A DNA stretch of 64,000 nucleotides from an uncultured Pelagibacteraceae bacterium (GTDB lineage: Bacteria; Pseudomonadota; Alphaproteobacteria; Pelagibacterales; Pelagibacteraceae), in contig CACMVB010000001.1 in NCBI GenBank assembly GCA_902617025.1, forward strand, positions 1-64,000, in the 5' to 3' direction. Both the position numbers and the translations under genes were made by a program. Under the pieces are notes generated by a model. That model ran no database searches and was not told the origin of the DNA. It was given only the letters and a program-made list of their open reading frames with translations. This document shows, piece after piece, positions 8,933 through 24,822 of the stretch. Each line of letters starts with the position of its first letter. Within the stretch, counting starts at the first letter, position 1.

Positions 8933-8947
8933 ACTCTCAATTTTAAA

Positions 8948-10123
8948 ATGAATCTTAAAAAACTTAGCATTGAAAACAAAAAAATCAGAAATTTAATACC
9001 TCAAGCATTAACTATATTAGCTTTACTTTCAGTAATTTTTTATTTTGCGACAAATGCTCAAATCAACATGGGTAACAGAGGAATATCATTTGGTTTTGGT
9101 TTTTTAAGTCAAGAGGCATCATTTGATATAGCTTTTTCATTAATTGAGTTCGATGGATCTTACTCTTATGGAAGAGCCTTTTTAGTTGGGCTATTAAATA
9201 CTATTTTAGTTTCAATTATAGGAATTTTCTTAGCAACAATTCTTGGTGTAATTGTAGGTGTTGCTAGATTATCTAATAATTATTTGATAGCTAAAACCGC
9301 AGAATGGTATGTAGAAATATTTAGAAATATTCCACTAATTTTACAAATATTTTTTTGGTATTTTGCAGCTCTTAGAGCATTACCTTCTCCAGAAAATGCA
9401 ATAAATTTTTATGATGTATCTTATTTGACAATTAAAGGTTGGTATATTCCAAAGTTTGTTTGGATCAATTTTGATATATTTTGTTATTCGCTCATATTAG
9501 CTTTTATATCTATATATTTTTTAAATCGATATACAAAAAAACAGCGTGAAGAGTTTGGTAAAATTTTACCAACTTTTACATTATCTTTAGGGATTTTAAT
9601 TTCGATACCTTTATTAAGTTTTTTATTACTAGGCGTATCTCTTTCTTTTGATTATCCAGAATTAAAACAACTATCTGAAACATCTTATACTTATGAAAAT
9701 GGAGTTAGCATAATACCAGAATTAATAGCACTAGCTCTTGCACTATCTATGTATACGGCAACTTTTATAGCTGAGAATGTTAGAGCGGGAGTAATGGGTG
9801 TAGGTAAAGGTCAAAAAGAGGCTGCAGCGAGCATAGGATTGAACAAAGGCCAAATTCTTAAATTAGTAGTGATGCCTCAAGCATTAAGGATTATTATTCC
9901 TCCAACTACTAATCAATATTTAAATTTAACAAAAAACTCATCTTTAGCAGCGGCAATAGCATATCCAGACATGGTTTTAGTTTTTGCAAAAACTGCTTTA
10001 ATGCAAACCGGAAGAGCGATTGAAATTATTTCAATTACAATGCTTACTTACTTATCTCTAAGTATATCGATATCTATATTAATGAACTGGTATAATAAAA
10101 AAATGGCTATCAAGGAAAAATAA
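8948..10123 (+). CDS. aapQ: L-amino-acid ABC transporter permease 1
   Basis: This 391-residue inner-membrane protein is the AapQ/BztB half of the general amino-acid importer. It has several hydrophobic helices and a late EAA loop (EAAASIGLNKGQILKLVVMP, ~297-316) that docks on AapP. FRNIPLILQIFFWY (~127-140) is typical of His/Glu-family permeases. It lies 15 bp downstream of the hairpin, and its stop directly abuts the aapM ATG. Confidence 0.93.
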   Translation: MNLKKLSIENKKIRNLIPQALTILALLSVIFYFATNAQINMGNRGISFGFGFLSQEASFDIAFSLIEFDGSYSYGRAFLVGLLNTILVSIIGIFLATILGVIVGVARLSNNYLIAKTAEWYVEIFRNIPLILQIFFWYFAALRALPSPENAINFYDVSYLTIKGWYIPKFVWINFDIFCYSLILAFISIYFLNRYTKKQREEFGKILPTFTLSLGILISIPLLSFLLLGVSLSFDYPELKQLSETSYTYENGVSIIPELIALALALSMYTATFIAENVRAGVMGVGKGQKEAAASIGLNKGQILKLVVMPQALRIIIPPTTNQYLNLTKNSSLAAAIAYPDMVLVFAKTALMQTGRAIEIISITMLTYLSLSISISILMNWYNKKMAIKEK

Positions 10124-14310: not shown

Positions 14311-14386
14311 TGGCTCCTCGGGCAGGACTCGAACCTGCGACCAATTGATTAACAGTCAACTGCTCTACCAACTGAGCTACCGAGGA
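14311..14386 (-). tRNA. tRNA-Asn (GTT anticodon)
   Basis: Read on the minus strand this is a 76-nt cloverleaf with acceptor TCCTCGG/CCGAGGA, discriminator G and an encoded CCA. The anticodon stem TTGAC...ATCAA surrounds GTT (reads AAC and AAT). The D-arm contains AGCTCAGTTGGTAGAGC and the T-arm GGTTCGAGTCC. It stands beside the tRNA-Cys-anchored island. Confidence 0.95.
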
Positions 14387-14434: not shown

Positions 14435-14479
14435 TGGAGGCCACGCCCAGAATCGAACTGGGATAAAAGGATTTGCAAT
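14435..14479 (-). repeat. orphan tRNA-Cys 3' fragment, distal att core
   Basis: This 45-bp sequence is identical to 18471-18515 and comprises the CCA end, T-arm, variable region and anticodon-loop half of tRNA-Cys. Beyond position 14479 it no longer matches the tRNA, so no complete tRNA can form here. It marks the far boundary of the island. Confidence 0.93.
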
Positions 14480-14502
14480 ATTCTGGATTCACAATATCCG
14501 TT

Positions 14503-14521
14503 CTCTCTGGTACTCTCTGGT
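14503..14521 (+). repeat. two direct repeats CTCTCTGGT at 10-bp spacing
   Basis: CTCTCTGGT occurs at 14503-14511 and 14513-14521, one helical turn apart, just inside the distal att core. The spacing fits protein binding on one face of the helix, but this is only a suggestion. Confidence 0.4.
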
Positions 14522-14602
14522 GCTCTTAAAAGATGAAATTCAGTCTTTTTTTAATTCAACTCCAAATAGTTATTATAAAAATAGGTAAAATCTTTTAGCT
14601 AA

Positions 14603-14624
14603 ACCAGTCCCTACACCGGTCCCT
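14603..14624 (+). repeat. paired ACCRGTCCCT repeats, left end of island
   Basis: ACCAGTCCCT (14603-14612) and ACCGGTCCCT (14615-14624) lie in direct orientation 124 bp inside the distal att core. The same decamer pair recurs at the other end of the element. This arrangement resembles arm-type binding sites of a tyrosine recombinase. Confidence 0.6.
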
Positions 14625-14653
14625 GGAATAGATAATTTTGATATACTAAATTC

Positions 14654-15238
14654 ATGAATTTTTCTCTTTTTTTTCTCATATCTATTTTTATATTTTTGAG
14701 TTCCGCAAATTCACATTCTGGAAGAACAAATTCTGAAGGATGTCATAAAAAGACAAGTAATAATACTTATCATTGTCATAATAGAAAATCTAATTATGAA
14801 AATAACTCATCAATCCAAAAATTTAAAGTAATAGACGGAGATACAGTTTCAATAAACAACATTTCAATTAGATTTTCAGGAATTGATGCACCAGAAAGTT
14901 ACTACAGAGGTAAAACACAAAAATGTGTAAAAGAAAACACGATTGTGGAATGTGGTCGTTTATCTAAGGAATATTTAATAAAAATTATTGGAAACAAAAA
15001 AGTAAAATGTAAAATCGAGAAAAAACCAGATCAATATAATCGAAAATTAGGTGAGTGTTTTGTAAATAATAAAAGTTTATCTAGTTTGATGGTTAGAGGG
15101 GGTTATGCATTTGATTACCCAAAATATTCCAAAAAAAAATATTCAAAAGATCAAGAATTTGCAAAGTCTAATAAACTTGGACTCTGGAGTATGGAGTTTG
15201 AATTTCCATGGGTTTTTAGGAAAAATTCAAGAAATTAA
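14654..15238 (+). CDS. secreted thermonuclease-like (SNase) protein
   Basis: This 194-residue protein has a signal peptide (~1-20), then a short Cys/His segment HSGRTNSEGCH...YHCH (21-42) often seen attached to SNase domains, then a nuclease-like domain (~54-190). Catalytic residues expected for staphylococcal nuclease are in place: Arg73 and Glu81 in IRFSGIDAPES, Asp61/Asp63 in DGDT and Arg130 in QYNRKLG. It should cut DNA or RNA outside the cytoplasm. It is the first cargo gene of the island and points toward the TerB operon, 59 bp upstream of it. Whether it belongs to that operon functionally is unknown. Confidence 0.88.
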   Translation: MNFSLFFLISIFIFLSSANSHSGRTNSEGCHKKTSNNTYHCHNRKSNYENNSSIQKFKVIDGDTVSINNISIRFSGIDAPESYYRGKTQKCVKENTIVECGRLSKEYLIKIIGNKKVKCKIEKKPDQYNRKLGECFVNNKSLSSLMVRGGYAFDYPKYSKKKYSKDQEFAKSNKLGLWSMEFEFPWVFRKNSRN

Positions 15239-15297
15239 ATATATTTCACATCTTTCAAAAGATCAAAAAATCTGATTTAATTTTAAAAGGGAGAATA

Positions 15298-15723
15298 ATG
15301 GACATATTAGAGGAGTATAGAGGTCAAAGCGATAGAACTATCTGTATTGTTGGAACTATTATACTTTCAACAAAAATATGTATGGTAGATGGTAAATTCT
15401 CATTGTATGAAAAAGATGAGATATTAAAAACTTTTCCCACTAATGATCCTAAAAAAAAGGAGACTATTTTAGATATTATAGATAAAGCCTCTAAAGATAA
15501 AAATGACGTAGTATATCATGCTGAGCGAATTAAAAAATTTGTTGATCCAGAACATGATAAATTTTTAGATTTTATTGTTGCAACTTTGATCAAATTTGCA
15601 AAATCAGATCACCATTTTGATGATAAAGAAAAAAAACTAATTTCAAAAGTTATAGATGTTTTCAATGATCATAAAAAACTTTCCTTATTACAAAAAATTA
15701 AAAAAAAGATGCGAGTTAATTAA
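15298..15723 (+). CDS. TerB/DjlA-like cytoplasmic protein (island operon gene A)
   Basis: This 141-residue, largely alpha-helical protein has no signal or membrane segment. Two acidic helix-capping motifs, VDGKFSLYE (30-38) and SDHHFDDKE (103-111), match the repeated DG...E pattern of TerB and the DjlA N-terminal domain, which are often linked to metal sensing and membrane stress complexes. A strong GGGAG ribosome-binding site precedes the ATG. Its stop overlaps the next start (TAATG), so it is translationally coupled to the large coiled-coil membrane protein. Family assignment is by pattern only. Confidence 0.65.
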   Translation: MDILEEYRGQSDRTICIVGTIILSTKICMVDGKFSLYEKDEILKTFPTNDPKKKETILDIIDKASKDKNDVVYHAERIKKFVDPEHDKFLDFIVATLIKFAKSDHHFDDKEKKLISKVIDVFNDHKKLSLLQKIKKKMRVN

Positions 15724-17489
15724 TGGAAAAAAATTTAGATAACATTTTTGATAGATTTTACCCTAGATCTCAAACAGTCCAACAAGGAATTTTTCTTCTT
15801 AAAACAGCATGGGCTGTCGAAATTTTATTGGCAACTATAGGATGTTTATTTGGAATTATTTTGATGTGGAAATTTACCGATGAGGAAGCCCAAGTAAGAA
15901 GTTTCTTGGGTATTTCTGGAGATGGTTTAATGATGGGTTTAATATTTTTTATGGTGGGTATAATTGAATTAACGAAAATCCCATTAGCTTCAGCAGTTTA
16001 TTATAGTAGAACTTTTTATATTCGAACTATCTTTTTGATAGCTTTAATAGCTGTAAATATTTCTACTTTTGAAACAGTTGTGGCAGGTTTTGAGAGAATA
16101 CAAAACCTAAGGACAAAAGATTTTAGATCATTATTAATTCAGAAAGACACTTTAGAAGATCAAATTTTAGAAAAAAGAATTAAAGTAGATGAAAAAAATT
16201 TGAATAATCAAATCGCTGATCTTCAATTAGCTAATGACAAAATCATTAATCAAATGCAAAAACTAGAAAATTCTGCAAAATCTAGAAAAAATTCAATAGA
16301 GGGGGCATCTTCACAAAGTGGAAGTGCGGAAAGTTTGCAAAGCCTTATAGACAGAGATGAAAAAGAAATACAGAGATTACAAAAAGATAATTTAGAGTCT
16401 CAAGCGATGCTTAAAGATACAGCTTGGTATAAAAAAGGATCAATAGATAGTTCAATTAAATTTAATAAGGAAAGAATAGATGAATTATCAAAAGAAATTA
16501 AAAATAATACCGATAAATTATCTACAGTTAAAAACTCAATGTCGAGAGACGTAAAAAATCAACTAGATTTAATAGATAGACAATTAAGTAGATCAATCAA
16601 ACCATTGCAAGATAATTTAAGAAAAAATCAGCAACTTATAGATAAGTATAATGATGATTTAAATAACATAGCGGATAAAAACCGAGAAAATCTAAAAGAA
16701 ATTAGTTCTATTCAAGAAGAAATTGATCAAATAGTAGAAAGAATAGACAGAGAAGGTCCTGACAATCAGGTTATACGAGTGGCTTCATGGTTTAAAAATT
16801 ACTTTATAATAGATTATGAGCTCGAAAATAATAAAATTAATAGAGAGATTAATAATTTAGAAACTTCTAAGGTTTTTAATACCTTTTTCTTTTGGAGATT
16901 CAAAACAGATCGTACACAAAAAGAAATTGATGTAATTAATGATCAAATTTCAAGATTGAATGAGCAGAAATTAACAAATGAACAAAGAATTATTCAAGAA
17001 AGAGAAAAAGGTGCCACTAAAACAGTTTATTCTGATATCCCACAAGCTGCCTTAACTTTTGCTTTTTGGATTTGGTTTGGAGTTCTAAGTTTTATAGTAT
17101 CAATTACTGGCACAATGTTAGCATTTGCTAGTCTTAATTTAAGAGACCCTCGAATGCACGATGATAGACAGAAAACTCAATTAAAAAGAAGGGGATTATT
17201 TTGGTGGTTTGTACGTTTATTATCAGCATGGACAAAAAATTTAAGAGTAAAAACTAGACAATTATTTAAACCTAATATCGTAGAAAAGAAAGTTGAGGTA
17301 GAGGTTGAAAAAATTGTAGAAAAAATTGTAGAAAAACCAGTGATACAAGAAAAGATAATTGAAAAAGAAATTGAAGTTCCAAAACAAATTGAAAAAAAAG
17401 TATTTGTCCATGTTCCATTTCCAACTGATGATCCGGAAGTAATCAAAAAAGGTCCCATGATTTATAATGATAAGGATAAGAAAAAATAA
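15723..17489 (+). CDS. large coiled-coil membrane protein, unknown (island operon gene B)
   Basis: This 588-residue protein has three predicted N-terminal membrane helices (~29-49, 68-90, 102-122), a long Lys/Glu/Asn-rich coiled coil (~125-435, broken around 350-395 by an aromatic amphipathic stretch), a fourth helix (~442-472) and a basic cytoplasmic tail. The tail (~519-560) consists of VEK/IEK-type short repeats and ends with a Pro-rich VHVPFPTDDPEV. I recognise no catalytic motif. The shape suggests a membrane-anchored scaffold or sensor rather than an enzyme. Both flanking genes overlap it by one base, so the three products are likely made in fixed proportion. Confidence 0.75.
   Translation: MEKNLDNIFDRFYPRSQTVQQGIFLLKTAWAVEILLATIGCLFGIILMWKFTDEEAQVRSFLGISGDGLMMGLIFFMVGIIELTKIPLASAVYYSRTFYIRTIFLIALIAVNISTFETVVAGFERIQNLRTKDFRSLLIQKDTLEDQILEKRIKVDEKNLNNQIADLQLANDKIINQMQKLENSAKSRKNSIEGASSQSGSAESLQSLIDRDEKEIQRLQKDNLESQAMLKDTAWYKKGSIDSSIKFNKERIDELSKEIKNNTDKLSTVKNSMSRDVKNQLDLIDRQLSRSIKPLQDNLRKNQQLIDKYNDDLNNIADKNRENLKEISSIQEEIDQIVERIDREGPDNQVIRVASWFKNYFIIDYELENNKINREINNLETSKVFNTFFFWRFKTDRTQKEIDVINDQISRLNEQKLTNEQRIIQEREKGATKTVYSDIPQAALTFAFWIWFGVLSFIVSITGTMLAFASLNLRDPRMHDDRQKTQLKRRGLFWWFVRLLSAWTKNLRVKTRQLFKPNIVEKKVEVEVEKIVEKIVEKPVIQEKIIEKEIEVPKQIEKKVFVHVPFPTDDPEVIKKGPMIYNDKDKKK
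17311..17334 (+). repeat. tandem 12-nt repeat encoding VEKI units
   Basis: AAATTGTAGAAA occurs twice in a row (17311-17322, 17323-17334) in the tail of gene B. It keeps frame, adding four residues per unit, and could vary in copy number by slippage. Confidence 0.6.
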
Positions 17490-18376
17490 TGTCAGAAATC
17501 ACTGAAAGATTAACAAAAGGTGAGGAAAACGATTATCATCCAGTAAATCAATACATTGACGAACAAAGCAGACTTAGAAGAGCTAGAAGTTTCTGGATTA
17601 GAGCTAAATCGTGGGCATTATTAATAATTGCAATCGGCTTTCTATTTGTTTTATTAGCTTGGGCTTATTCTCTGCTTCACAAACACTACATTTTAAAAAG
17701 AGTAGGTGCAGTTCAAGAAAGAGTAATAGAGGAAAGAATAAACGAAGCAATTTCTATTGGAGGAATGTCTAAATCTGTTTCTGAAATTAGAATGCTTGGA
17801 GACAACCAATTAGCAATAGAAGAGCTGAGAAAAACAAAAAAAGCTTTAGAAAACGAACAAAATAAAAATAAAGAGCTAGCTCAAGAAATTGATAATACTT
17901 CAGAACAGATCAGTAAAGCTGCTGAAGAGTTAGAAAAATCTGTTGGAAAAGTAGATTCTTTTGAGTCTGAGAAGTTAGCATTACTAAAAAAACAACAAGA
18001 GCTTGAAAATCAAGTAGCTCAACTTAAAGAAGAGGGACAAGAAAGAGCAGAAACAATTAAAAAATTAGAAGAAATAAAAGAAAAAAATAAAAATGCGGTT
18101 CAAAATTATTATTTATTTAATGAAGAAATTGTGAAAGTGAGCAATAAAAACTTAAGAATAATGACACGATATCAGTTCAAAGATTTAAATGCTACGAGAC
18201 CAATGTTTGTTGACTGCTATGTTGATTTTGTTAAACGAGCTAATTTGGACCTAGTGGACTTAAATCTTGGTACAATTGAAACTGATTTTAAGTTATCGAA
18301 AAAATATACAGATAGTGGATTTACCAAACAACAATTTGTAGATTTAAAACAAAATAATTGTAGATATCTAAATTAA
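17489..18376 (+). CDS. single-pass coiled-coil membrane protein, unknown (island operon gene C)
   Basis: This 295-residue protein has a charged cytoplasmic N-terminus (1-40), one membrane helix (~41-63), a long heptad-rich coiled coil (~108-190) and a compact C-terminal domain (~193-295) with two cysteines (Cys233, Cys291). With a positive N-terminal flank (RRARSFWIRAK) the C-terminus should face the periplasm, where the cysteines could pair. It starts inside the stop of gene B (TAATG) and ends the operon 28 bp before the right-end repeats. I do not recognise a family; it is not an OmpA/MotB-type protein by motif. Confidence 0.7.
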   Translation: MSEITERLTKGEENDYHPVNQYIDEQSRLRRARSFWIRAKSWALLIIAIGFLFVLLAWAYSLLHKHYILKRVGAVQERVIEERINEAISIGGMSKSVSEIRMLGDNQLAIEELRKTKKALENEQNKNKELAQEIDNTSEQISKAAEELEKSVGKVDSFESEKLALLKKQQELENQVAQLKEEGQERAETIKKLEEIKEKNKNAVQNYYLFNEEIVKVSNKNLRIMTRYQFKDLNATRPMFVDCYVDFVKRANLDLVDLNLGTIETDFKLSKKYTDSGFTKQQFVDLKQNNCRYLN

Positions 18377-18404
18377 CACTTTTATTATAAGAAATTATGG
18401 GATT

Positions 18405-18425
18405 ACCAGTCCCTAACCAGTCCCT
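18405..18425 (+). repeat. paired ACCAGTCCCT repeats, right end of island
   Basis: ACCAGTCCCT occurs at 18405-18414 and again at 18416-18425, in the same orientation as the pair at the left end, and 45 bp inside the tRNA-proximal att core. Sharing a decamer pair at both ends of the element supports recombinase arm sites. Confidence 0.62.
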
Positions 18426-18470
18426 GATGGGGATAAATTAGCTATTCGTATCCAAAATGATCGGTTTTAC

Positions 18471-18544
18471 TGGAGGCCACGCCCAGAATCGAACTGGGAT
18501 AAAAGGATTTGCAATCCTCTGCGTAACCATTCCGCCACGTGGCC
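18471..18544 (-). tRNA. tRNA-Cys (GCA anticodon), island attachment site
   Basis: On the minus strand the acceptor strands are GGCCACG and CGTGGCC with discriminator T and encoded CCA, 74 nt in all. The anticodon stem GAGGA/TCCTT encloses TTGCAAA, giving GCA. Bases 18471-18515 form the att core shared with 14435-14479. This copy is intact, so integration preserved tRNA function. Confidence 0.95.
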
Positions 18545-18563: not shown

Positions 18564-19628
18564 TTAAACTTGTAATGATTTTAATCTATTTTTTTTATTA
18601 TCGAATAAATATATCTTATTTTTTTGGAAGTAAATTGTAATTTTTTTATCTTTTATACTTTTAGCACTTTTTATTCTGATTTCTGTGTTATTTAAATGAG
18701 AATATATAATTTTTTCTGACCCTAAATTTTCAATTAAATCAACACTGATTTCAACTCTATATTCACTTTGATTTTCTAGAGAGATATCTTCAGGTCTAAT
18801 ACCCACATAAAGACCATCTTCAAAATTTAAATTTTCAAATTTAAAATCTATATTGAATAATTTAAATGTATTTTTGTTTAATATATCTTCAGTTTTAACT
18901 TTGAAAATATTCATTTTAGGATTACCAATGAATTCTGCAACAAAAATATTATTTGGATTATTGTAAATATCTTCAGGGCTTCCAAATTGTTCAATCTTTC
19001 CTTTATTCATAATGACAATTTTATCAGCTAAGGTCATTGCTTCAATTTGATCATGGGTTACATAAATAATATTGCTTTTAAGTTTTTTATGTAATTTTGA
19101 AATTTCAACTCTCATCTCCGACCTAAGTGCAGCATCAAGATTAGAAAGAGGCTCATCAAATAAAAATAATTTAGGGTTTCTAGTGATAGCTCTTCCAATT
19201 GCCACACGCTGTCTTTGACCTCCCGAAAGTTCCTTTGGTCTTCTATCCAAAAGTTCTTCAATTTTTAAAATTTTTGCAGCTTCATTTACTTTATCTAAAA
19301 TATCGTTTTTTGAAATTTTTTCAGATTTAAGACCGAAAGAGATATTCTCAAAAACATTCATATGGGGATACAAAGCGTAGGATTGGAAAACCATCGCAAT
19401 TTGTCTTTTTGAAGGTAATAAATCATTTAATAGATTGTTTTCTAAAAGTATTTTGCCTCTATCTATTTTTTCTAGTCCAGCTATCATTCTTAGTAGGGTT
19501 GATTTTCCGCAACCAGACGGACCTAAAAGAACAATAAATTTTCCTTTTTCAACCTCTAGGTTAAATTTACTAATTACATTATTTTTCCCGTATGATTTGT
19601 CTATATCTTCAAACTCTAAAAAGGGCAT
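18564..19628 (-). CDS. sugar ABC transporter ATP-binding protein (MalK/UgpC type)
   Basis: This 354-residue ATPase has Walker A GPSGCGKST (~36-44), signature LSGGQRQR (~134-141), Walker B LFLFDEPLSNLD and switch VTHDQIEAM, with a C-terminal TOBE-type domain (~240-350). These are hallmarks of the MalK/UgpC group energising carbohydrate importers. It is divergent from the binding-protein gene (119 bp between starts) and is presumably the ATPase for the two permeases there, since that cluster lacks its own ATPase. The gene ends next to tRNA-Cys. Confidence 0.9.
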   Translation of the reverse strand: MPFLEFEDIDKSYGKNNVISKFNLEVEKGKFIVLLGPSGCGKSTLLRMIAGLEKIDRGKILLENNLLNDLLPSKRQIAMVFQSYALYPHMNVFENISFGLKSEKISKNDILDKVNEAAKILKIEELLDRRPKELSGGQRQRVAIGRAITRNPKLFLFDEPLSNLDAALRSEMRVEISKLHKKLKSNIIYVTHDQIEAMTLADKIVIMNKGKIEQFGSPEDIYNNPNNIFVAEFIGNPKMNIFKVKTEDILNKNTFKLFNIDFKFENLNFEDGLYVGIRPEDISLENQSEYRVEISVDLIENLGSEKIIYSHLNNTEIRIKSAKSIKDKKITIYFQKNKIYLFDNKKNRLKSLQV

Positions 19629-19747
19629 ATTCTGTATATTATCATTTTAATAAAATTTTCAAACCTCGTATGCATTTTAATCATAGATATTTTTTCAACC
19701 TTATTGATAAACTTAAATCATTATTTAAATATTTAATAGGAGAAAAA

Positions 19748-21070
19748 ATGAGAAAAATATTATCATTCATTTTTGCTTTAACTTTATTATCGTCTAATAG
19801 TTTTGCAGATATAACTTTTTGGACTACTGAAGTTCAACCAGCAAGAATGGAGAAACAAATGGAAATGGCTAAATCATTTGAGTCCAAGACTGGAATTAAA
19901 GTTGAAGTAATACCAGTGGAGGAAAAAGATTTAGGTTCTAGAGCTACTGCCGCCGCAGCTGCTGGAAATCTTCCAGATGTAATTTATCATACACTTCAAT
20001 ATGTTTTACCCTGGGCTGAAGCAGGTATACTTGATGTAAATGCAAACAATGATGTTGTTAAAAGTTTAGGAAAAAATACTTTTGCTCCAGGAGCGTTGAA
20101 CATGGCAAAGAAGGGTGGAAAAATTGCTGCTGTGCCAGTTGACGGCTGGACACAAATGGTAGTTTATAGGAAAGACTTATTCAAACAAGCAGGTCTTGAA
20201 CCACCGACAAGTTATGAAAATATTACTAAAGCTGTTAAAGTTCTTTCAGGTGGAGACATGTTTGGATTTGTAGCTGCAACTAAAACTGATGAAAACTTTA
20301 TGAGCCAAGTTCTTGAACATGTTCTTTTAGCAAATGGTGTTAACTTTGTAAAAAAAGGAGGAACAAAAAAACAAGGAAAAGCTCTTAAAAACTCTTTAGA
20401 GTTTTATAAAGTTATAGCTAAAGCGAGTCCTCCAGGAGAATTATTCTGGAAACAATCAAGAGAGCTATACTTTGCTGGCAAAACACCAATGATAATTTGG
20501 TCACCGTTTATAATGGATGAGTTGGCTGGACTAAGAGATTCAGCTCCACCAACGATAAACAGCGATCCAACATCATCTGAACTTGCTTCTAAAACTGGTT
20601 TCATAACGAATTTTAGTGGACCAAATAACAAGAAAGGTGCTGCATGGGCAGATTTAAGATATTTTGGTATTACAGCTGACGCAGATACTGATGAAGCTAA
20701 AAAGTTTGTTGAGTATTCTATGGACGAAGGTTACACAAGTACGTTAGCAATCGCTCCTGAGGGTAAATTTCCAGTAAGAAGAGGAAATTCTTCAGATCCT
20801 GCTGCGTTTACAAAAGCTTGGAGTAAATTACCAGTTGGTGTAGATAGAAAAAAACCATTAACTGAACTTTATTCGCCCGATGTAATTAATAACATTGTTG
20901 CAGGATTAGATACCGCAAATAGATGGGGTGTAAAAGAAGGTGAGCTTTCAAGAGCATCAAAAATAATCAATGCTCAATTCTTGAATAGAATTACAAGAGA
21001 ATACATTGATGACCAAATAACTGTTGATGAAGCGGTTAAAAAAATTAACGCAGAATTAGCAAAATTCTAG
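19748..21070 (+). CDS. sugar ABC transporter periplasmic binding protein (family 1)
   Basis: I choose the ATG after an AGGAG ribosome-binding site because it starts a clean signal peptide (~1-22, cleaved near SFA-D), giving 440 residues. In-frame upstream ATGs would bury the signal. The protein belongs to extracellular solute-binding family 1 (MalE/UgpB-like): FESKTGIKVEVIPV, LPDVIYHTLQY, VPVDGWTQMVVYRKDLF and GKTPMIIWSPF. It should capture an oligosaccharide or glycoside. The substrate is unknown, but a glycosidase gene ends the operon. A strong hairpin follows the stop. Confidence 0.9.
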   Translation: MRKILSFIFALTLLSSNSFADITFWTTEVQPARMEKQMEMAKSFESKTGIKVEVIPVEEKDLGSRATAAAAAGNLPDVIYHTLQYVLPWAEAGILDVNANNDVVKSLGKNTFAPGALNMAKKGGKIAAVPVDGWTQMVVYRKDLFKQAGLEPPTSYENITKAVKVLSGGDMFGFVAATKTDENFMSQVLEHVLLANGVNFVKKGGTKKQGKALKNSLEFYKVIAKASPPGELFWKQSRELYFAGKTPMIIWSPFIMDELAGLRDSAPPTINSDPTSSELASKTGFITNFSGPNNKKGAAWADLRYFGITADADTDEAKKFVEYSMDEGYTSTLAIAPEGKFPVRRGNSSDPAAFTKAWSKLPVGVDRKKPLTELYSPDVINNIVAGLDTANRWGVKEGELSRASKIINAQFLNRITREYIDDQITVDEAVKKINAELAKF

Positions 21071-21084
21071 CAAATTTATTTCTT

Positions 21085-21115
21085 AAAAGCGGATAATAGG
21101 TTATTATCCGCTTTT
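21085..21115 (+). terminator. intercistronic hairpin, sugar binding protein/permease
   Basis: A perfect 14-bp stem AAAAGCGGATAATA/TATTATCCGCTTTT closes over a 3-nt GGT loop and ends only 2 nt before the permease ATG at 21118. It can terminate transcription or protect the upstream message, favouring excess binding protein. It would also bury the permease ribosome-binding region. Confidence 0.8.
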
Positions 21116-21117
21116 AA

Positions 21118-22377
21118 ATGAGTTCCATATTATCAAAAATAGAAAAAAGGACTGCATATATACTTCTTTTACCTGCTGTATGCTTGGTATTTGCAATAAT
21201 TTTATTTCCAATTTTTGCGAACGTCTGGATTAGTTTTAAAGAAGTTGGACTTAAAGATATAAGAATTCCAGAGCCTAGGGCAAAAAAAATTGTAAAAAAT
21301 ATACAAGATAGTAATTCTGAATTAAAGATTATCTATAAATTAAGAAATAGTTCTTTAATCCAAGATATTAAAGAAGTTAGATTTTCAGATAAATTACCAA
21401 AAAATATTGAACCAGTAAATTTGGACAAAAGATGTGAATTTAAGTCACAAAAAGTCAAATGTTTTTTTGGAAATTGGGAGGCAGGCTATCGTGAAAATTT
21501 CGAAATTTTTGTCAAAGATATGAATAACAATGCTATTAACAGTAAATACGTTAAATCTAATAAGCCAGATTTGAATGGAAAATCAAATAATATTTTATTG
21601 ACAACAGATTTTACTCTCAAAAATTTTAAAAATGTTTTTATTAATAACAATTTTTTTGAGCTTTTAATGACGACTTTTTACTTTACTTTTTTCGGAACAC
21701 TTGGAGCTATTTTACTTGGCATATTCGCTGCTCAACTTGTAAATCAAAAATTTTATGGAAGAACTTTTATGCGTAGTATACTTCTTTTTCCTTATGTAGG
21801 TCCCGTGGTTGCTTTGGCTTATACCTGGACTTTACTCTTAGATCCTAATAGCGGCATAATAAATTCTCTTCTAGTTAATTATGAAGTGATCGAAAAGCCT
21901 ATAAATTTACTAGGACAAAAGTATTTGATTGTTAATATTTTAGGATTTGAGTTGAAACTTAGATTAGCATTAACAACAGTGATATTTTTTGAGATCTGGC
22001 GATATTTTCCTTTAGCTTTTTTATTTATATTAGCTAGACTACAAGCTATTCCAAAGGATCTTTATGAGGCTGCAGATGTTGATGGTGCTGGGCCCTTTAG
22101 AAAATTTTTTTATATTACTCTTCCACAAATTACAGCGATTTTATCAATATTATTTATGATTAGATTTATTTGGAACTTTAATAAGTTTGAAGATATATTT
22201 TTATTAACAGGCGGTGCTTCAGGTACTTTAACGTTACCAATAAGTGTATATCAACAAGGATTTGCAGTATCAAATATTGGCATGGGCTCAGCAGTTTCAA
22301 TAGTAATCGTATTATTATTGATAACTTTCATGATTATTTATTTCAAATTAATTGGAAAAAAGGCTAATGAAATTTAA
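21118..22377 (+). CDS. sugar ABC transporter permease 1 with periplasmic insert
   Basis: This 419-residue MalF/UgpA-type permease has a first membrane helix (~12-36), then about 140 residues of extracytoplasmic domain (~38-180) before the core helices. The EAA loop (EAADVDGAGPFRKFFYITLP, ~318-337) docks on the ATPase. The insert contains two cysteines (CEFKSQKVKC) that could form a disulfide, as in the MalF P2 domain, but I see no clear homology. No ribosome-binding site is visible because a hairpin occupies the leader. Confidence 0.87.
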   Translation: MSSILSKIEKRTAYILLLPAVCLVFAIILFPIFANVWISFKEVGLKDIRIPEPRAKKIVKNIQDSNSELKIIYKLRNSSLIQDIKEVRFSDKLPKNIEPVNLDKRCEFKSQKVKCFFGNWEAGYRENFEIFVKDMNNNAINSKYVKSNKPDLNGKSNNILLTTDFTLKNFKNVFINNNFFELLMTTFYFTFFGTLGAILLGIFAAQLVNQKFYGRTFMRSILLFPYVGPVVALAYTWTLLLDPNSGIINSLLVNYEVIEKPINLLGQKYLIVNILGFELKLRLALTTVIFFEIWRYFPLAFLFILARLQAIPKDLYEAADVDGAGPFRKFFYITLPQITAILSILFMIRFIWNFNKFEDIFLLTGGASGTLTLPISVYQQGFAVSNIGMGSAVSIVIVLLLITFMIIYFKLIGKKANEI

Positions 22378-23560
22378 ATCTTTAATAATAACTTTGCTTG
22401 CATCATCAATTTTTCTTACAATAATAATTTGTATATGGAAAATATTGGCAACTTTGCAAGGTTTAAGTTTTACAAATCTTAACTTTAATCTAAATCTATT
22501 ATTATCAATCGGATTAGTTATAACTTGTGTATTTATTGGGAAAAAGTTCAATCATAACTTAAAAATTTTTTTATTATCCTTATTATTTACAATTTTATAT
22601 ACATTTTTAAATGAAAACTCCCCTATATGGTTTTCATTAGGTATTTTTTTACTAATTTTATTTTTTACAAATAAATTGAAAAAATACGATTTAAAATATT
22701 TAAATCAGGATTTTATATACGAAAAAATTGTGTTTGAGTTTTTATCTTTATTTGCAATAGTATTTTTTGCATTAGTTATATTATTTCCTTTTTACATAAT
22801 GTTTGTTACCAGCTTTAAAACACAAACTGCTCTATTGATTAACCCGATTGATCTAAGTATTGATTTTTCAAAAAATATTTTTGAGATATTCAAATCTTAT
22901 TTTGTCATTTTCAAAACATATGATTTTGGAAGATATATTCTTACAAGCTCGTATGTATCAGTTGGAACCGTTTTAATAACCTTATTATTTGCTGTCCCCG
23001 CAGCTTACGCTGTTGCAAGATTAAATTTCTTTGGCAAAACATTTCTTTCAACATCAATATTGATAATTTATATGTTTCCAGCAATAGTATTAGTAATTCC
23101 TTTATACACTGTTTTTAGTCAACTAGGTTTGAGGAATTCTGTAGAAGGCCTACTAATAGTTTACACAGCAACCACTTTACCAGTAGCTATATATATGCTT
23201 CAAGGATACTTTAAAAGCATACCTAAAGAAATCGAAGAGGCGGGACTTATAGATGGACAAAATTGGTTTGGAATAATTCTGAAAATAATAATTCCTCTTA
23301 GTTTACCTGCTATAGCTTCAGTATCGTTATATGTATTTATGATAGCTTGGAATGAATTTTTATTTTCTCTTATGTTTTTAGATAATCCAAAAACATTTAC
23401 ATTATCTAGAGCAATAAATCATTTGACTGGTGATGCCGAAACTCCACGGCAATATCTAATGGCTGGATCCGTGGTGGTAACTTTACCAATACTTTTAATA
23501 TTCATATATTTTGAAAAATATTTAGTAAGCGGTTTAACAGCTGGCAGTGTTAAAGAATAA
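22367..23560 (+). CDS. sugar ABC transporter permease 2 with extra N-terminal helices
   Basis: The start is taken at the ATG that overlaps the upstream gene by 11 bp, not at an earlier TTG, giving 397 residues. The C-terminal ~270 residues are a MalG-type permease: FYIMFVTSFKT (~135-145), the EAA-like loop EEAGLIDGQNWFGIILKIIIP (~286-305) and YLMAGSVVV. Before it lie about 115 residues of extra hydrophobic helices, not standard for MalG, which normally has six helices. Stop and next start overlap (TAATG). Confidence 0.85.
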   Translation: MKFKSLIITLLASSIFLTIIICIWKILATLQGLSFTNLNFNLNLLLSIGLVITCVFIGKKFNHNLKIFLLSLLFTILYTFLNENSPIWFSLGIFLLILFFTNKLKKYDLKYLNQDFIYEKIVFEFLSLFAIVFFALVILFPFYIMFVTSFKTQTALLINPIDLSIDFSKNIFEIFKSYFVIFKTYDFGRYILTSSYVSVGTVLITLLFAVPAAYAVARLNFFGKTFLSTSILIIYMFPAIVLVIPLYTVFSQLGLRNSVEGLLIVYTATTLPVAIYMLQGYFKSIPKEIEEAGLIDGQNWFGIILKIIIPLSLPAIASVSLYVFMIAWNEFLFSLMFLDNPKTFTLSRAINHLTGDAETPRQYLMAGSVVVTLPILLIFIYFEKYLVSGLTAGSVKE

Positions 23561-24822
23561 TGAATTGCACAATCAAAGAAGCAAAGAAAACCTTAATAAA
23601 TAACAGAAGATTAAATTACACTTTACCTACTAATACTAAACTTTATCCAGCTCAATGGAATTGGGACTCAGCATTTATTGCATTAGGATATTCTAATTTC
23701 AATTTAAACTATTCATTTAAAGAACTTGAAACTCTGATTTCAGGACAATGGGATGACGGAATGATACCACACATTCTTTTCCATATTAAAGATTTAAATT
23801 ATACTCCTAATTATAAAGCTTGGAATTGTGGTAAAAAAGTTTCCTCATCTGGAATAACTCAACCACCAATTTTGGTAAGCATTTTAAGGATAATATTTGA
23901 AAGACAAAAATTTTCAAAAAAGGAGATAAAAAAATTTCAGCCTTTGATTTTAAAGATTAAAAGATATTTAGAATGGTTTATTAGATACAGAGATCCTAAA
24001 AGAACCGGTTTAATTTCTATACTTCACCCATGGGAAAGTGGTTATGATAATTCTCCTTTGTGGGATAAATCAATGAGTAAGATTAAAATAGAATCAAATC
24101 TTAGTTACAAGAGAAAGGATAATAAAATTGTCGAAAAAAGCCAAAGGCCTTTGAAAATCGATTATGATAGATATGTAACTATTAAAAATCATTTAAAGGA
24201 AATGAATTATGATCCAAAAAAATTATACTTCAAATCAAAATTTAATGTTGTAGATGTTGGATTTAATTCACTTTTTTTAAAAGCTTTAAAAGATATGGAT
24301 TTTTTACTTAGATGTATAGATAAAACAAATTCTTCCATAAAAAAATATATTCTTTTAAATGAGAGTAAGCTTATAAAATTATTCGACTCAAAAAAAATGA
24401 CATTTAAAAATAAAGATATAAGAAATAATAGTTCAATAGTCATACCTTCAATAACTAATTTTTTTATGTTATTTGCAGATTTAAATAATAATTCAATTAA
24501 TAAATCATTAATAAAAAGTTTAAAAAGATATGATAAAAATAATAAATATCTTTTTCCTTCAATAAATTCTAAACATAAATCTTTTGAAGAAAAAAGATAC
24601 TGGAGAGGGCCAGTATGGGTTAATTGCAATTGGATTCTATATCAAGGCTTAAAAAATAAAGATAAAAAGTTCGCAGAAACCATAAGAAAAAAGACCTTAA
24701 ATTTAGTTGAAAAGAAAAAATTTCGAGAATATTACAGTTGTAGGTCAGGTTTAGGAATGGGTGCTAAAAATTTTTCTTGGACTGCTGCCTTATATCTAGA
24801 TTTAAAACTTAATAGTTATTGA
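23560..24822 (+). CDS. GH63/MGH1-like glycoside hydrolase
   Basis: This 420-residue protein resembles the (alpha/alpha)6-barrel glycosidases of the GH63/MGH1/trehalase type. Recognisable blocks are PAQWNWDSAFIALGY (~30-44), DGMIPHI, GITQPPI, the catalytic-region HPWESGYDNSPLWD (~155-168, Asp162 candidate acid) and RYWRGPVWVN (~345-354). Relatives release glucose or mannose from glycerate-linked or oligosaccharide substrates. No signal peptide is seen, so it should act in the cytoplasm on the imported sugar. It is the last gene of the transporter operon. Confidence 0.83.
   Translation: MNCTIKEAKKTLINNRRLNYTLPTNTKLYPAQWNWDSAFIALGYSNFNLNYSFKELETLISGQWDDGMIPHILFHIKDLNYTPNYKAWNCGKKVSSSGITQPPILVSILRIIFERQKFSKKEIKKFQPLILKIKRYLEWFIRYRDPKRTGLISILHPWESGYDNSPLWDKSMSKIKIESNLSYKRKDNKIVEKSQRPLKIDYDRYVTIKNHLKEMNYDPKKLYFKSKFNVVDVGFNSLFLKALKDMDFLLRCIDKTNSSIKKYILLNESKLIKLFDSKKMTFKNKDIRNNSSIVIPSITNFFMLFADLNNNSINKSLIKSLKRYDKNNKYLFPSINSKHKSFEEKRYWRGPVWVNCNWILYQGLKNKDKKFAETIRKKTLNLVEKKKFREYYSCRSGLGMGAKNFSWTAALYLDLKLNSY

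Follow-up and report, generated by a model that had tools for sequence, protein, structure and literature searches.

The DNA analysed here (the window) is a 64,000-nucleotide stretch from an uncultured Pelagibacteraceae bacterium (positions 1 to 64,000 of contig CACMVB010000001.1, GenBank assembly GCA_902617025.1) and carries a small island in a tRNA-Cys gene, between positions 14435 and 18515. This island is probably a non-autonomous integrative element of the tyrosine-integrase type, moved in trans by integrases of differing arm specificity. It has exact attachment-site (att) repeats, empty sites in relatives, matched arm pairs and no detectable integrase gene, and recent transfer of a sister element was seen between draft genomes.

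The element would have inserted at the anticodon loop of tRNA-Cys, bringing with it a replacement for the gene's 3' half. It would retain the DNA that an integrase needs, namely the anticodon stem-loop core and an arm-type pair near each end, with no recombinase gene. Because core and arms are kept and a recombinase gene is not, it should be mobile only when a matching integrase is supplied in trans, presumably by a phage or some other mobile element. It would belong to a cassette family otherwise located at tRNA-Leu(UAA), each member with its own arm sequence at both ends. The window's own copy could be frozen.

An island bounded by copies of half a tRNA-Cys gene

Positions 14435-14479 and 18471-18515 form an exact 45-bp repeat with the copies 4,036 bp apart, as an earlier reading of the letters alone (the sequence-only reading) had described; widened to 57 bp, the pair is 93% alike. 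The repeat is the 3' half of tRNA-Cys, from the anticodon loop through the encoded CCA. A 166-bp probe from the repeat start matched the window's genome (G000) at the two att copies and nowhere else. The boundary features are:

14311..14386, minus strand: tRNA-Asn, left flank marker outside the element (ARAGORN, Rfam)
14435..14479, minus strand: left att copy, the displaced 3' half of tRNA-Cys, 45 bp (exact repeat of 18471-18515)
18471..18515, minus strand: right att copy, the 3' half of the intact tRNA-Cys (exact repeat)
18471..18544, minus strand: intact tRNA-Cys (GCA), the target (ARAGORN and Rfam)

The tRNA-Asn lies 48 bp from the left att copy, as in empty relatives, and the sequence left of that copy is the spacer known between tRNA-Asn and tRNA-Cys in those relatives. 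We examined 30 tRNA-Cys loci with a probe that matched 44 of 61 genomes. The empty allele, with 44-49 bp between tRNA-Asn and tRNA-Cys, was present in 21 of the 30, all in the window's genus; in one of these genomes, G132, the spacer is one base off the window's over ~48 bp. Among the other nine loci, one holds 940 bp, six from a neighbouring family hold 1,088-1,116 bp, and those of the window and G195 have no tRNA-Asn within the stretch examined. A tree built from two flank proteins (23 rows) places the window nearest to G233, G135 and G132, all empty, and then to the carrier G283. The sequence-only reading had proposed looking for empty single-tRNA-Cys sites in relatives, and these exist, including in the three nearest flank relatives. 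Vertical conservation with no empty alleles, which it said would speak against mobility, is not the pattern seen: the empty state is the commoner one. The regenerated tRNA, the displaced fragment and the empty sites together fit a tRNA-integrated genomic island.

The absence of an integrase, also claimed from the letters, was borne out when the island was searched by tblastn with eight recombinases and by a profile built from them (distant recombinases might escape it): no integrase or significant remnant was found, and two integrase-bearing islands used as positive controls were both recovered. The same searches of ten integrase-less element stretches gave nothing significant (best E 0.077 by tblastn, 0.31 by profile). 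The sole PF00589 match in the window's genome is an Xer-like gene outside the window (C1:68551-69096), and PF00239 had zero matches in that genome.

Paired repeats at both ends of the island

Paired direct repeats near both att copies, and a TCTC triple near the left one, had not been noted in the earlier reading and are added here:

14504..14527, plus strand: TCTC-N6-TCTC-N6-TCTT triple, 24 bp inside the left att copy (motif search)
14604..14624, plus strand: left arm pair, CCAGTCCCT-ACA-CCGGTCCCT, then AGATAA at 14630 (putative arm sites)
18406..18425, plus strand: right arm pair, CCAGTCCCT-AA-CCAGTCCCT, then GGGGATAAAT (putative arm sites)

The motif CCRGTCCCT occurs at 14604, 14616, 18406 and 18417, which are its only four occurrences in the window (chance mean 0.05), and the two pairs that it forms in the whole genome are both at the island ends. 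Judged by this architecture, the paired repeats are likely to be integrase arm-type sites. The left arm pair, at an offset of 123 bp, scores 34/36 against its own right end, compared with 30 for the best other right end; the window's arm-pair score was reached by 1 of 100 shuffles. The TCTC triple, which may be a binding site for an accessory or directionality factor, has one match in the window and none in 100 shuffles, a test made after the fact on a motif first spotted by eye.

A family of integrase-less cassettes at tRNA-Leu(UAA)

The layout of the window's element is repeated in 31 integrase-less elements at tRNA-Leu(UAA) in 19 genomes. A TCTC-related pattern, with one mismatch allowed, was located at 57 places in 52 of 297 genomes, against 8 places for the reversed control. 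The regions around 20 of the 57 places were fetched and, with L183, supplied the 31 elements. Copies of the 5' half of tRNA-Leu(UAA) were present in 18 of the 20 fetched regions (two or three copies in nine), L306 and L308 having no tRNA-Leu copy, and the cassettes are often stacked in arrays. Profile searches found no integrase in the 20 fetched regions or in the 32 elements (the 31 and the window's), which span 0.9-9.1 kb.

The TCTC triple lies at offsets 20-25 with at most one mismatch in 27 of the 32 elements, most loci having been picked by this motif, which guarantees one element with it at each such locus; arms, att copies, missing integrases and extra array members were not selection criteria. 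In 29 of the 32 the arm pair begins 121-126 bp inside the left att copy. Arm sequences vary between elements, even inside single arrays, yet agree at both ends of each. For the left arms, the element's own right end was unbeaten in 27 of 32 cases, the window being among the nine unique best matches; those without a best own match (three in L294, the first in L298 and the first in L183) were counted in the 32. The summed arm-match score was reached in none of 10,000 permutations, which treat related rows as independent because some sampled elements are near-copies (L290, L301, L307 and L309; L291 and L304).

The window's element shares the TCTC triple (offset 24, zero mismatches) and the matched arm pair with the tRNA-Leu family and differs from it in site, being inserted at tRNA-Cys with a copy of the 3' half rather than at tRNA-Leu(UAA) with a copy of the 5' half. 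By our comparison, the tRNA-Leu(UAA) core AGGACTTAAAATCCT and the tRNA-Cys core AGGATTTGCAATCCT, on the element's strand, are alike and nearly palindromic. One recombinase type for both targets is therefore conceivable: using tRNA-Cys on one strand would put the island on its 3' side, and using tRNA-Leu on the opposite strand would put it on the 5' side.

To sample the cargo, ten hand-picked proteins of the tRNA-Leu elements were compared with Pfam and ten, partly overlapping, with PADLOC, yielding 12 assignments from 20 queries. Matches were to a helicase resembling Mokosh components, two C5 methylases, a Cas4-like protein, an autotransporter, a polysaccharide lyase, and dehydroquinate-synthase-like and trypsin-like proteins; several queries had no match.

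The element in L304 3802-5785 (G274) has a different layout at tRNA-Leu(UAA): it lacks the TCTC triple, and its matched arms, CTAGTGTAG, lie at 55 bp. It may represent a second family at this site.

Recent transfer of a sister element

The window's genome also has two integrase-less elements at tRNA-Leu(UAA), at ~170.1-176.3 kb and thus outside the window (L290, contig 1, 167-184 kb). One of these, of 4,986 bp, is 100.0% identical by BLAST to its counterpart in G058, both genomes being drafts in which an assembly artefact is possible. In a base-by-base comparison the two differ at a single position over 5,115 bp; this stretch opens 2 bp outside the left att copy and closes one base beyond the tRNA end. 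The similarity stops at the element ends, and the outer flanks are 78.8% (2,448 bp) and 82.1% (3,009 bp) identical. Versions in G079 and G027 are 98.3-98.4% identical to the G000 element, with flanks 71-78% identical to those of the window's genome. Barring an assembly artefact in these drafts, this shows that the sister element crossed species very recently. One PF00589 gene each was found in G000, G058 and G027 (325 aa, Xer-length), and none in G079.

Movement in trans is favoured for the window's element because its end architecture is common to integrase-less elements, one of which moved very recently. The sequence-only reading had suggested either a satellite-like element moved by another element's recombinase or one frozen by integrase loss. 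Site-specific insertion without an integrase stands, and the shared end architecture favours the first option, but not in the strict sense of a phage satellite: no integrase, primase or terminase gene was found in the island, whereas other islands of this bacterial family carry such genes.

Cargo of the island and its relatives

The island encodes the following proteins, open reading frames (ORFs) and Pfam matches agreeing with the SNase-like gene and three-gene operon described earlier:

14654..15238, plus strand: SNase-like nuclease gene, 194 aa, with a YHYH-type segment (PF00565, E 8.5e-18; NF033223)
15298..15723, plus strand: TerB-domain gene, 141 aa (PF05099, E 6e-9)
15723..17489, plus strand: 588-aa protein, mainly helical, coiled-coil (ORF; relatives in 12 of 397 genomes)
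17489..18376, plus strand: 295-aa coiled-coil protein (ORF; family matches weak, coiled-coil)

The 12 of 397 family genomes with relatives of the 588-aa protein include the window's own. Its structure model (mean predicted local distance difference test score 70.6, predicted template modelling score 0.41) had zero matches in the PDB at E <= 0.001. At a guess, TerB hints at a membrane-stress or phage-response module. A viral origin of the cargo was rejected: TerB had no tblastn match in phage records, TerB, 588-aa and SNase queries found no confirmed relative among viral contigs, and the exact 45-bp att and a left-end pattern were present in 0 viral contigs.

Related cargo was found at the tRNA-Cys site of three further genomes. 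In G138 a 45-bp copy is followed by SNase, TerB and the 588-aa gene before the contig ends. G283 has TerB, the 588-aa gene split across two contig ends, and the 295-aa gene; its right end is nearly identical to the window's, with one arm change, and of its SNase only the last 27 residues are present, alongside ~7 kb of other genes. In G195 the site is occupied by an 11-kb island whose operon has diverged. In the flank tree the four carriers do not group as a single clade, and its starred branches require a minimum of two changes.

At other loci the operon is flanked by copies of tRNA-Thr(UGU) (49 bp, G298), tRNA-Leu(UAA) (39-40 bp, G378) and tRNA-Leu(GAG) (22 bp, G086). The ends of the G086 and G298 elements are unlike the window's, so a given cargo is not always tied to one type of end. 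In shuffle tests of these integrase-less elements, the arm scores of G298 and G378-B were reached in 0 of 100 shuffles, that of G378-A in 7 and that of G378-C in 13; the G086 element has no tandem arm pair.

The 11-kb tRNA-Cys/tRNA-Asn island of G195 (L181 7582-18596) also has caspase-like, trypsin-like and ligand-gated-channel-like genes. Proteins of ~150 aa in two islands here (L179 7427-7882 and L181 15959-16426) look alike by eye and had no convincing Pfam or PHROGs match. In G117, the 940 bp between tRNA-Cys and tRNA-Asn (L198 1575-2514) contain no tRNA copy and resemble a small coding insertion.

Search for a helper integrase

Each arm code should have a cognate integrase, so that helpers could be found by code; the phage-type attachment site (attP) of a helper would be expected to hold AGGAYTTRMAATCC and an arm pair matching the cassette code. 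Among 397 genomes, arm-binding-type integrases numbered 12 at E below 1e-60 and 16 at 1e-20. Copies of a tRNA (tRNA-Asn, Met, Ser, Arg or Glu) accompany eight of the 12; for three no tRNA was called, and the one in G119 lies beside tRNA-Ser with its copy not found. One from the 1e-20 set, in G036 and outside the 12, lies beside tRNA-Leu(UAG).

Five integrase-bearing islands (G093, G089, G056, G007 and G017) resemble the window's element in being small and tRNA-inserted. In three of them (G093, G089 and G056) both ends carry matched tandem pairs of the kind seen in the window's element, with scores that 0 of 100 shuffles reached, compared with 1 of 100 for G007 and 8 of 100 for G017. They differ from it, as phage satellites do, in having their own integrase, a primase/helicase-like gene in four of the five, a small terminase in two, and other target tRNAs.

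The integrase-bearing islands in L252, L253, L255, L257, L258, L343, L344 and L347 are at tRNA-Ser, Met, Met, Met, Asn, Arg, Glu and Met, respectively. Those with primase/helicase-like genes (L252, L253, L257 and L258), two of them with a small terminase (L252 and L253), are candidate phage satellites.

The arm pattern did not lead to a helper. The CCAGTCCCT pair was found in 36 viral and at least 118 genome stretches, and among these 154 listed loci there was one integrase match (L115, ~2.3 kb from the pair). Most of these matches look like chance; the exact pair occurs in one of 297 family genomes, the window's own. The core plus TCTC pattern was found in six viral contigs (GC 38-57%, no tRNA called), five of them without an integrase match. 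In the sixth, L312 3869-5090, an integrase match (E 9e-15) ends ~20 bases from the pattern; this gene adjoins what appears to be a tmRNA-like (transfer-messenger RNA) end, and L312 is taken as a probably unrelated element.

Among integrase-bearing pelagiphages, overlaps with tRNA-Cys were found for HTVC022P and HTVC121P (37 bp each) and HTVC019P (15 bp), overlaps with tRNA-Leu(UAA) for S35-C6 (40 bp), HTVC109P (26 bp) and HTVC200P (12 bp), and tRNA-Arg matches for HTVC120P and Bylgja. Positions 8946-8996 of HTVC019P were rejected as attP: by eye they fall within a whole tRNA-Cys-like gene (8946 onward; L218 3001 onward), which the phage carries in addition to its att core; the core lies behind the integrase gene.

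Alternatives to movement in trans

Several observations count against our preferred reading. Within the family, 18 of the 27 unbeaten arm matches are ties, the left arm spacing in the window's element is 12 and not 11, and the G123/G274 element pair is 90.3% identical with flanks at 88.6-93.9%, as inheritance predicts. For the window's element itself no recent transfer was seen: compared with G138, its genes have diverged about as much as the flank genes (588-aa 86%, TerB 80% and SNase 64%, against CysK 87%, the helix-turn-helix gene 88% and the 13117-13800 gene 65%). G195 and G283 hold related cargo at tRNA-Cys without a left att copy. These last two observations, with the lack of an integrase inside the island, would also fit a fossil: an old insertion now fixed in place after losing its integrase, with att and arm sites as leftovers. 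We consider a fossil fairly unlikely, as the arm pairs and att copies are intact at both ends, integrase-less members are common (from the pattern counts and fetched tRNA-Leu(UAA) regions given above), and one member moved very recently with no integrase gene in either genome.

Only three changes on the flank tree account for the carriers, a number that 98 of 500 label shuffles did not exceed. That would fit a history with no mobility at all, in which the island is inherited vertically and now and then lost precisely through recombination or slippage of the 45-bp repeats; direct repeats of this length are able to delete precisely. Such a history would leave unexplained the matched element-specific arms, their fixed offsets and the arrays, as well as a sister element with one mismatch in 5.1 kb across 79-82% flanks, and appears very improbable.

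The helper search adds two further difficulties. None of the 12 arm-binding-type integrases in the 397 genomes is at tRNA-Cys or tRNA-Leu(UAA), and matched tandem pairs are absent from eight phage attP regions, seven scoring 0 and the best 16/36. The helper could instead be an integrase of HTVC019P-type temperate pelagiphages acting on the common anticodon core, with the tandem arms unused. These phages share both anticodon-loop targets with the cassettes, and the available parts of two papers report tRNA-Cys as the integration site of HTVC022P (PMC12753301) and an HTVC019P-like genome with a 46-bp tRNA-Leu fragment (PMC3861242). They differ from the cassettes in being whole phages with an integrase, in lacking matched tandem arms, and in carrying the 5' half of tRNA-Cys where the island has the 3' half. 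Since a pelagiphage helper would also leave the matched arms of the cassettes unexplained, we regard it as unlikely.

A host-encoded integrase is a further candidate, namely the solitary Xer-like recombinase (317-325 aa), whose gene in the window's genome (L003 1135-2088, contig 1, ~68 kb) scores far below the XerC and XerD cut-offs. That genome has no other PF00589 gene, and of 147 genomes in the family 110 have PF00589 matches, almost always a single one. However, arm sequences that differ within one genome, and even within one array, are hard to square with one recombinase. By our reading of the sequences, its N-terminus looks shorter, without the arm-binding-like stretch of the island integrases, and PF00589 was undetected in the carriers G079 and G086, which as drafts may be incomplete. 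We judge this explanation improbable. We retain movement in trans by integrases of differing arm specificity as the best explanation.

Relation to known systems and significance

As kinds, tRNA islands and helper-dependent elements are already known. Islander-type tRNA islands are precisely marked by a regenerated tRNA and a displaced fragment and, in the available part of PMC4383910, are usually identified with a tyrosine integrase. The window's element has the same end marks and keeps paired arm sites, and a tyrosine integrase of its own was not found. Tycheposons, which the accessible text of PMC10872708 describes as 4-200 kb with a xerD-type tyrosine recombinase, are likewise tRNA-bounded cargo islands of streamlined marine bacteria; here the recombinase was not found. 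Miniature inverted-repeat transposable elements (MITEs) and cassette arrays of clusters of attC sites lacking integron integrases (CALIN) depend on a transposase or integron integrase as helper, according to the portion of PMC11389934 seen. As far as these descriptions go, the cassettes here resemble them in arrays and in having ends recognised by a recombinase encoded elsewhere, and differ in att sites that are tRNA halves, tandem arm pairs, and an arm sequence private to each element.

Cis-mobilizable elements (CIMEs) of integrative conjugative elements are flanked by att sites and have no recombination genes. The window's element is alike in both respects; a related autonomous element was not found here, conjugation genes not having been searched for as such. 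No description of integrase-less tRNA-Leu or tRNA-Cys cassettes with matched arms in SAR11 was found in the literature searched, where coverage of subscription journals was thin.

Few cells in the ocean are as abundant as SAR11-type bacteria. Because their genomes are small and have few recognised mobile elements, how their accessory genes move is an open question. We tentatively propose, as a possibility that falls somewhat short of probable, a system of coded cassettes: integrase-less elements at tRNA-Leu(UAA) and tRNA-Cys with private matched arms, moved between species by a set of non-resident helper integrases that differ in arm specificity and come from phages or other mobile elements, and carrying secreted-protein and phage-defence genes. 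If so, cassettes with readable end codes, their motif present in 52 of 297 genomes, would be a concrete vehicle for accessory genes, and secreted-protein and defence genes would travel in genomes usually thought too streamlined for mobile elements. A Mokosh-like helicase, cytosine methylases and a Cas4-like protein were among the cargo sampled, so phage defence may be spread by these cassettes via the tRNA sites that pelagiphages also use.

The region right of tRNA-Cys (18564-24822 and L188-L212) varies within the genus, tRNA-Cys being followed either by a sugar ATP-binding cassette (ABC) operon (MalK and a substrate-binding protein, SBP) or directly by ValS.

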